Positions 19,330 to 20,559 of a stretch of 39,748 bases of DNA are shown piece by piece (the first letter of the stretch is position 1; every line of letters starts with the position of its first letter). The notes under the pieces were generated by a model. The model was given only the letters and a program-made list of their open reading frames with translations. It had not been told where the DNA came from and searched no databases. The stretch is from IMG/VR virus record IMGVR_UViG_3300047552_000792, positions 1 through 39,748 of that record; one strand, 5' to 3'. The DNA is from a virus. Position numbers and translations under genes: made by a program.

Positions 19330-19769
19330 TGCGAACTCTAAAGTTTAGGGCGTGGGATTCGTCAGAGAAGGAAATGTTTCCTGTATTTAGCCTAAAGATG
19401 TTTGTGGACGATGCGGGCAAGCCGTGGTGTTCGGCAGGCGAGTTGGATACCACAGATGCCAATTCGATATTCGAGCAGCGGATTAGACGGCTTGGCATAT
19501 TGCCAGTCATGCAATTCACCGGCTTGGTGGACAAGAACGGTAAGGAGATTTATGAGGGGGATGTGTTGAGATTCGATAATTATATGCACCAAGGCAAAGT
19601 GGTGTTTGACTTCGGGCAGTTCTTTGTTCAAATCGACGGTCGTTTTTATTGTTCTATCGCAGCGCTCGCACACCCGAAAGATGGTTACGGTTGCGAAATC
19701 ATCGGCAACATCTACGAGAATCCTGAGTTGCTGATAAATGGCACAACTACACAGGAGCCTTCGACATGA
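19329..19769 (+). CDS. YopX-family protein
   Basis: The product is 146 residues. It begins MRTLKFRAWDSSEKEM and contains MQFTGLVDKNGKEIYEGDVL (residues 60-79) and EIIGNIYENPELL near the end. These are the hallmarks of the YopX domain, common in phages and prophages. The fold is a small beta-barrel thought to bind protein or nucleic acid, and its function is not established. ATG 19329 overlaps the previous stop (TGATG). It lies directly upstream of the methyltransferase locus. Confidence 0.9.
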   Translation: MRTLKFRAWDSSEKEMFPVFSLKMFVDDAGKPWCSAGELDTTDANSIFEQRIRRLGILPVMQFTGLVDKNGKEIYEGDVLRFDNYMHQGKVVFDFGQFFVQIDGRFYCSIAALAHPKDGYGCEIIGNIYENPELLINGTTTQEPST

Positions 19770-19810
19770 GCAGGGGAGACTCAACCATGAGCCATGAGGA
19801 ATGGAGCTGA
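19766..19810 (+). CDS. 14-codon frame leading into the methyltransferase
   Basis: The frame encodes MSRGDSTMSHEEWS. It starts as ATGA on the YopX stop and ends ten bases inside the methyltransferase gene, four bases before the second, nested start at 19814. Ribosomes ending here could restart at either downstream ATG. It may act as a leader that sets the ratio of the two overlapping products. Confidence 0.4.
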   Translation: MSRGDSTMSHEEWS

Positions 19811-20559
19811 CGCATGGCAGCTTCTTTGCCGGAGTCGAAGGTTTCGGACTCGGTTTCGAGAGGGCTGGATTCCGCACAATTTGGCAAGTCGAAAACGATG
19901 ACTACGCGACGAAAGTCAATGAGAAGAACTTCAAATCTGCAAGACGCATTCGAGATGTTCGTTCCGAAGAAATACTGGCACTTGAAAGGCCAACCGTCAT
20001 CACAGGCGGATTTCCATGCCAAGACGTTAGCTGCGCAAATCAAATTGAGTCCAAAGGGCTTGACGGAGAGCGCAGCGGATTGTGGGTGCAGTACGTTAGA
20101 GGCATTCGCGCAATTAGACCGCCTTTCGTCGTCGTGGAGAACGTCGCAGCGCTCTATCACAGAGGTTTGGGCAGAGTTCTCAGGGACTTGGCCGAGAGCG
20201 GGTATGATGCGGAATGGGATTGTTTACCAGCGGAAGCCTTTGGCGCGACGCACAAGAGGGAGAGGGTATTTATCGTTGCCCACTCCGCAAGCCTCGGACT
20301 CAGTTCGCCTGAAATTCTCTGTCGAGCAGCTCATAAAGGCCGTGAGGCGGAACAAATTCCAAGGTCATGGCGGCACAAATGGCCTGAGCCTTGCGCACCA
20401 ACTGGCATACCGATTTGGGATTTACTTGCACCCAAGCGTTTCAGAGCGCCTTATGGGCTTCCCGACGGGATGGACAGGCTTAGGTGCATCGGAAATGCAG
20501 TCTATCCAGACATTGCCGAGTTCATCGCATGGAGAATCAGGGAGGCGATAGAGACATGA
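19801..20559 (+). CDS. DNA (cytosine-5) methyltransferase
   Basis: The product is 252 residues, short for the family, with all core motifs present: I FFAGVEGFGLGFE (8-20), IV GGFPCQDVS with the catalytic Cys 73 (69-77), VI VVENV (111-115), VIII ATHKRERVFIVA (149-160) and IX/X RLRCIGNAVYPDIAE (226-240). The target-recognition region (about 165-220) is small. It transfers a methyl group to cytosine C5, probably protecting phage DNA from restriction; no cognate nuclease is seen. ATG 19801 is the first possible start, with GAGGA directly beside it. The gene contains a second long frame. Confidence 0.9.
   Translation: MELTHGSFFAGVEGFGLGFERAGFRTIWQVENDDYATKVNEKNFKSARRIRDVRSEEILALERPTVITGGFPCQDVSCANQIESKGLDGERSGLWVQYVRGIRAIRPPFVVVENVAALYHRGLGRVLRDLAESGYDAEWDCLPAEAFGATHKRERVFIVAHSASLGLSSPEILCRAAHKGREAEQIPRSWRHKWPEPCAPTGIPIWDLLAPKRFRAPYGLPDGMDRLRCIGNAVYPDIAEFIAWRIREAIET
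19814..20551 (+). CDS. Nested second-frame protein within the methyltransferase gene
   Basis: This 245-codon frame lies wholly inside the methyltransferase gene, shifted by one base. GGAG lies 7 bases before its ATG, a better site than that of the outer gene. Its product carries patterns I associate, from memory, with a phage protein family commonly annotated beside or as cytosine methylases: SSSWRTSQ (105-112), GTWPRAGMMRNGIVYQ (124-139), LPTPQASDS (155-163) and HPSVSERLMGFPTGWTGL (206-223). Those patterns coincide base for base with conserved methylase motifs in the outer frame. So either both frames are translated, or the family is a shadow of the methylase. Confidence 0.55.
   Translation: MAASLPESKVSDSVSRGLDSAQFGKSKTMTTRRKSMRRTSNLQDAFEMFVPKKYWHLKGQPSSQADFHAKTLAAQIKLSPKGLTESAADCGCSTLEAFAQLDRLSSSWRTSQRSITEVWAEFSGTWPRAGMMRNGIVYQRKPLARRTRGRGYLSLPTPQASDSVRLKFSVEQLIKAVRRNKFQGHGGTNGLSLAHQLAYRFGIYLHPSVSERLMGFPTGWTGLGASEMQSIQTLPSSSHGESGRR

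Follow-up and report, generated by a model that had tools for sequence, protein, structure and literature searches.

The window analysed here is the whole 39,748-nucleotide stretch of the IMG/VR virus record IMGVR_UViG_3300047552_000792, and the locus in question is a cytosine methyltransferase gene that holds two overlapping open reading frames (ORFs), both on the plus strand, as are the motifs and candidate starts given below by window position. The outer ORF, alpha (frame 0), spans 19801–20559 and encodes 252 amino acids, while the inner ORF, beta, spans 19814–20551 in the +1 frame, encodes 245 amino acids and lies entirely within alpha. An earlier note made from the sequence alone had described this pair, and our coordinates agree with it, as they do for the start signals it named (GAGGA immediately ahead of the first ATG, that of alpha, and GGAG separated by 7 nt from the ATG of beta). 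Alpha represents the catalytic (large) domain of a C5-cytosine DNA methyltransferase (C5-MTase), with motifs I–VIII and X, and matched Pfam DNA_methylase (PF00145, 1.1e-41) and PHROG 363. Beta matched PHROG 1008 ('DNA methyltransferase'; 4e-18), as did 107 of 107 aligned betas, so the separate phage 'methylase' that the note had mentioned does exist. The three motif pairs that it had set opposite each other also coincide base for base: alpha DLAESGYDAEWD (20185–20220) with beta GTWPRAGMMRNG (20183–20218), a pair conserved in both frames over 20183–20220; alpha AHSAS (20278–20292) with beta LPTPQASD (20276–20299); and alpha GLPDGMDRLRC (20455–20487) with beta LMGFPTGWTGL (20450–20482).

The motifs of the enzyme are divided between the two frames. 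Frame 0 carries motifs I, IV, VI, VIII and X in one chain, including the PCQ of motif IV, the ENV of motif VI and the RxR of motif VIII that place alpha among the PF00145 C5-MTases. Motif IV (GGFPCQD, 20005–20025) contains the catalytic Cys73, motif VI (VVENVAAL, 20131–20154) is read as SSWRTSQ in +1, and motif VIII (HKRERVFIVA, 20251–20280) contains the invariant H151, R153 and R155; residues C73, E113, N114, R153 and R155 were invariant in 71 alpha homologues. The earlier note had credited the outer protein with all core motifs, but motif IX is missing from frame 0 and present in the nested frame. Frame 0 also lacks an ordered recognition domain, and alpha does not combine motif IX with a recognition domain in one chain as a monomeric C5-MTase does. 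In beta, a putative target-recognition domain (TRD) beginning with LPTPQASD (20276–20445) lies opposite a part of alpha that is predicted to be disordered, and is followed by LMGFPTGWTGL, in which M214 and G215 were invariant in 107 betas. Motif X (CIGNAVYP, 20485–20508) is again in frame 0. Most loci, including those retrieved by alpha alone, show this arrangement, with motif IX in +1 and GNAV (motif X) back in frame 0, usually 44 nt past the motif-IX Glu. In three canonical phage monomers examined as controls (Klebsiella phiKp_3, Thermus P74-26 and Streptococcus YS771), both motif IX and motif X lay in frame 0 and +1 was full of stops; canonical monomers scored 0–29 bits on a beta profile. 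The text LMGFPTGWT reads as motif IX itself, not as a shadow of motifs IX–X, and the opposite frame-0 text GLPDGMDRL behaves as a passenger.

The note had posed an alternative: either the locus is dual-coding, or the second frame is only a shadow of motifs VIII–X. On the shadow explanation as considered here, the +1 ORF would go untranslated, as a by-product of alpha motifs VI–X and codon bias, and PHROG 1008 would be an annotation artefact. Given the alpha protein and codon usage, the +1 frame of the window would be open by chance over all 245 codons with P = 0.004 and over alpha codons 101–230 with P = 0.086, the latter value being a point in favour of the by-product. Openness in the window sequence by itself is modest evidence for dual coding; the homologues are decisive because an open +1 frame in one sequence is only moderately unlikely, and the comparative evidence is strong.

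According to the note, dual coding would be contradicted if homologues had many stops in the second frame or changed there at the neutral rate; dual coding withstood this test. We retrieved 62 non-redundant viral homologues by alpha only and compared them with a null in which the synonymous codons of each gene were shuffled. The +1 frame contained 2 stops in the core, whereas the null predicted 69.5 (for every frame being open, log10 P = -36), and the +2 control frame of the same loci showed no deficit (307 stops compared to 268 expected). Amino-acid conservation in +1 exceeded the shuffles in most ten-codon segments of alpha codons 101–230 (20101–20490; z about 10–58, and 11 or less elsewhere), the constraint starting near alpha codon 101 and stopping near 230. 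At motif IX, conservation was higher in +1 than in frame 0 (4.05 vs 2.26 BLOSUM units). In 51 homologue pairs, change at third codon positions exceeded that at first positions 2.52-fold where alpha alone is coded, 1.61-fold across the overlap and 2.11-fold in motif X, whereas the ratio was 0.34 in motif IX; the reversal at motif IX is what a motif coded in +1 predicts.

For the TRD, substitution classes were counted in 17 close pairs with at least 72% nucleotide identity, pairs at 60% identity having been dropped as misaligned. Changes that were silent in frame 0 and non-silent in +1 occurred at 24.8 per 1000 opportunities, and those silent in +1 and non-silent in frame 0 at 80.0; the corresponding rates were 24.8 for changes non-silent in both frames and 93 for changes silent in both (Fisher P = 9e-19). 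The relative rate in +1 was 0.31. These class rates indicate that the TRD of the family is under purifying selection in +1 and close to neutral in frame 0.

The window itself was scored on a beta profile built without it. Its +1 frame reached 175 bits, compared to 66 ± 11 bits (maximum 104) for 500 synonymous shuffles. The shuffles of the window still score, and the canonical-type methyltransferase of phiCD27 reaches 29 bits, so the resemblance is partly shadow; the shadow effect is real, yet insufficient to explain the window's match to the profile. In a hold-out set of 77 further loci, retrieved by alpha motifs IV and VIII and absent from the profile, 75 beat all 40 of their own shuffles (mean 175 vs 67 bits). 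A mere by-product is contradicted by the stop deficit, the conservation beyond shuffles, the codon-position reversal and the hold-out scores, as well as by the constraint on the TRD in +1, set against near-neutral change there in frame 0. At the family level we reject a pure shadow on the synonymous shuffles, the codon-position counts and the hold-out set, and consider that explanation extremely improbable. Of the note's two alternatives, dual coding was thus favoured and the pure shadow was not, although a shadow component exists (66 of the 175 bits). In the overlap both frames are under purifying selection, as is +1 in the TRD and motif IX of the family.

The best Shine–Dalgarno (SD) sequence in the window belongs to ATG 19814. 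This candidate beta start (19803–19816; GGAG, a 7-nt gap, ATG) is not conserved across the family, and an alternative beta ATG at 19955–19957, in the column of alpha codon 52, has no clear SD in the window. In 41 of 71 homologues an SD-like 4-mer precedes an open +1 ATG that lies ahead of the beta core, compared to 6.6 ± 2.3 in shuffles. The alpha-codon-52 column, a preferred but not universal site, held an ATG with SD in 15 of the 71 (0.6 expected); GAT enrichment at alpha codon 52 taken alone was not significant (z 1.4). The excess of SD-preceded starts favours two products that would be initiated separately. A short ORF (ATG AGC AGG ... TGA) at 19766–19810 spans the alpha start and stops a few bases before ATG 19814, and because it ends just ahead of the beta ATG, translational coupling is possible.

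One fused product, made by a programmed frameshift or a ribosome hop from alpha to beta, would be the alternative to two proteins. It has been raised for Cluster O phages (PMC4351075), and in-frame fusions occur in nature (L178, L179, L299 and L337). The constraint on +1, however, already sets in at about alpha codon 101, before motifs VI and VIII are reached; a late shift would therefore leave the conserved +1 codons 101–160 unexplained, and an early shift would lose motifs VI and VIII. A complete fusion of the nested form would even need two shifts, because motif X in frame 0 comes after motif IX in +1. A frameshift is the less likely route because the +1 constraint starts before motifs VI and VIII and motif X returns to frame 0; with SD-preceded ATG starts enriched six-fold as well, we regard a fused product as improbable.

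Structure prediction was consistent with this division of motifs. In the AlphaFold2 model of alpha, residues 1–168 and 223–252 were mostly confident, and the predicted local distance difference test score (pLDDT) fell below 50 at residues 178–182 and 191–222, opposite the TRD and motif IX of beta. The closest fold of the alpha model was M.HaeIII (1dct; E = 4e-15; 172 columns), matched without its small domain. The beta model contained strands near residues 97–139 and a helix at motif IX. The split between the frames tracks the domain boundary of the enzyme, with the large domain in frame 0 and the small domain in +1. Glycolipid transfer protein was a weak profile hit of beta (E 0.2) and was discounted, as were scattered weak Pfam and NCBIfam hits.

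Beta might also be translated for another job, such as alpha regulation or counter-defence, and not serve as a small domain. The conserved N-terminal part of beta (SSWRTSQ...TWPxSGM) is without a known counterpart in monomeric enzymes, and no solved homologue of beta was found by sequence, both of which would fit such a role. Beta nevertheless contains the motif IX that is missing from alpha, and fused actinophage forms hold LPTPxAxD and EWMMG text in one chain with motifs I–VIII and X. With the precedent of M.EcoHK31I in addition, another job for beta is very improbable.

Two-polypeptide C5-MTases are known. In M.EcoHK31I (YGGCCR), the large subunit holds motifs I–VIII and X together with the predicted TRD, and the small polypeptide holds just motif IX; in M.AquI, motifs IX and X are both in the small subunit (PMC3404938). 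The window shares with M.EcoHK31I a large subunit with motifs I–VIII and X and a second polypeptide with motif IX; the comparison is with the published description of that enzyme, and the window's gene lies in a virus record where no partner nuclease was noticed. The beta gene of M.EcoHK31I is said to be nested in its alpha gene in another frame. M.AquI is likewise naturally split in two polypeptides, but in the window motif X lies in alpha, and the M.AquI arrangement is instead found in Firecracker, Phlei, Toaka and Andrew.

Among phages, beta-frame coding potential in the overlap of the Cluster O mycobacteriophage pair (Corndog gp7/gp6, Firecracker gp6/gp5) was noted in 2015, and that paper left undecided whether it reflects two products, a frameshift, a hop or an intron (PMC4351075). 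The Cluster O pair resembles the window in having an alpha and an overlapping +1 beta, and Firecracker gp5 matched the beta profile with 98 bits. It differs in that alpha stops after motif VIII and beta holds motifs IX and X, whereas the beta of the window lies wholly inside alpha, which keeps motif X. The 'hidden HNH' of ShiLan is a second protein out of frame within a phage methylase gene (PMC11855218); it is an inserted homing endonuclease, whereas beta of the window is no insertion and completes the enzyme. In one nested locus (L302), the +1 frame runs past motif IX into an HNH-like ORF (CQSCG...HHPDY...CPPCH) and then a repeated motif-IX tail; alpha is still open there, and the arrangement resembles the out-of-frame 'hidden HNH' homing elements (PMC11855218).

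Judged by sequence, both frames are open and conserved, the motifs are divided between them, +1 is selected, and start signals are in excess in the family. On this basis, overprinting at the locus very likely gives rise to a C5-cytosine DNA methyltransferase of two subunits, including an internal start and assembly of the subunits. Alpha would provide the large catalytic and S-adenosylmethionine-binding domain with motifs I–VIII and X, and beta the small domain, with the target-recognition region and motif IX. We infer that both are translated in this phage and assemble into one enzyme as a heterodimer, beta being initiated at its own internal start and not by a frameshift, here probably at ATG 19814 and less likely at ATG 19955. 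The alpha text opposite the beta TRD may be kept open only as a flexible linker leading to motif X. The likely role would be that of an orphan phage methyltransferase shielding phage DNA from host restriction.

Several observations weigh against this reading. The window is not a member of any of the 17 pairs behind the codon-position test in the TRD, and window residues before about beta 100 are not conserved. Scores on the beta profile are inflated by the shadow effect, for which the shuffles control. By the criterion used, an SD-preceded start is missing in 20 of the 71 homologues, and no one start site is used family-wide. For beta alone, AlphaFold2 gave a model of low confidence (mean pLDDT 62; predicted template modelling score 0.29), and a fold search of the PDB with it gave no match. 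The literature on M.EcoHK31I predicts the TRD in the large subunit, whereas the TRD of the family studied here is under constraint in +1, that is, in beta. In addition, the methylase products of Cluster O were not seen by mass spectrometry (PMC4351075).

The family is broad, with beta present in hundreds of viruses and many bacteria. A broad alpha scan returned at least 592 alpha relatives. Beta was found in contigs of many bacterial phyla and one archaeon; when 299 genomes of one phylum were sampled, 15 contained it. Among the viral loci classified, which were retrieved by an alpha or a beta query, beta lay in the +1 frame of alpha, except in phage Llama, where alpha is frameshifted, and no stand-alone beta genes were found; the beta profile was built partly from these loci, and the 77-locus hold-out is the clean test. 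In Llama (L002), the frameshift splits alpha into gp74 and gp75 and the beta motif text is retained; the near-identical gene of phage Nitzel (L006) is intact. Firecracker, Phlei, Toaka and Andrew carry split, partly overlapping forms with motifs IX and X both in beta, and prophiFSIL01-1, Philonius, L299 and L337 carry in-frame fusions. In a quick tree with mostly weak branches, the four split forms and three of the fused forms made up one fully supported clade within the nested group, which suggests that the nested form may be the older one in this family because the split and fused clade sits inside it.

Further loci departed from the common arrangement. L299 has its recognition region in +1 but motifs IX and X in frame 0, a pattern that an indel switching the frame between them would produce; it may stand midway between the nested and the fused type, or contain a sequencing error. 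In L317, alpha stops just past motif VIII, beta is open to motif IX, and no motif X was seen close behind motif IX in any frame, so this may be a degrading copy. A divergent beta subgroup (L345, L346 and L348; IWKPWITPAGRQ...GWPTPTARDYR...LNPEHTRWLMGFPPGWS) lies in the +1 frame of a more distant alpha, and because these betas are also in +1, the dual-coded family would be wider than the group analysed statistically.

Public annotation usually shows one of the two frames. Of nine nested-form phages, seven were annotated with alpha only and two (Rctr197k and Mwe-JY08) with beta only. For L005 (KX853510.1) and L010 (PP395640.1), the public annotation gives the beta frame without alpha, the opposite of the other nested phage records examined. 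Neither Pfam nor NCBIfam has a model for beta, which explains why annotation usually shows alpha alone and less often beta alone. No paper on the breadth of the family was found in the literature searched, which was mostly without subscription journals. The architecture itself is as reported for M.EcoHK31I; new here are how widely the family occurs, the placement of the recognition domain in beta, and the lack of a Pfam or NCBIfam model for beta.

Taken as a whole, the family is probably a widespread dual-coded group of C5-MTases in which the whole small domain is overprinted in +1, so that specificity would evolve in one frame while the other forms an unselected linker; the nested form may be older, and the split and re-fused actinophage enzymes derived. 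A common enzyme family would then conceal one full enzyme domain in a second frame. For the question left by the 2015 Cluster O paper, the comparative data favour two proteins and an internal start. Recoding the alpha gene when cloning such an orphan methyltransferase would destroy the specificity subunit. The family also offers a large natural data set on how constraint is shared between overlapping frames, and its in-frame and split relatives can serve as comparisons.
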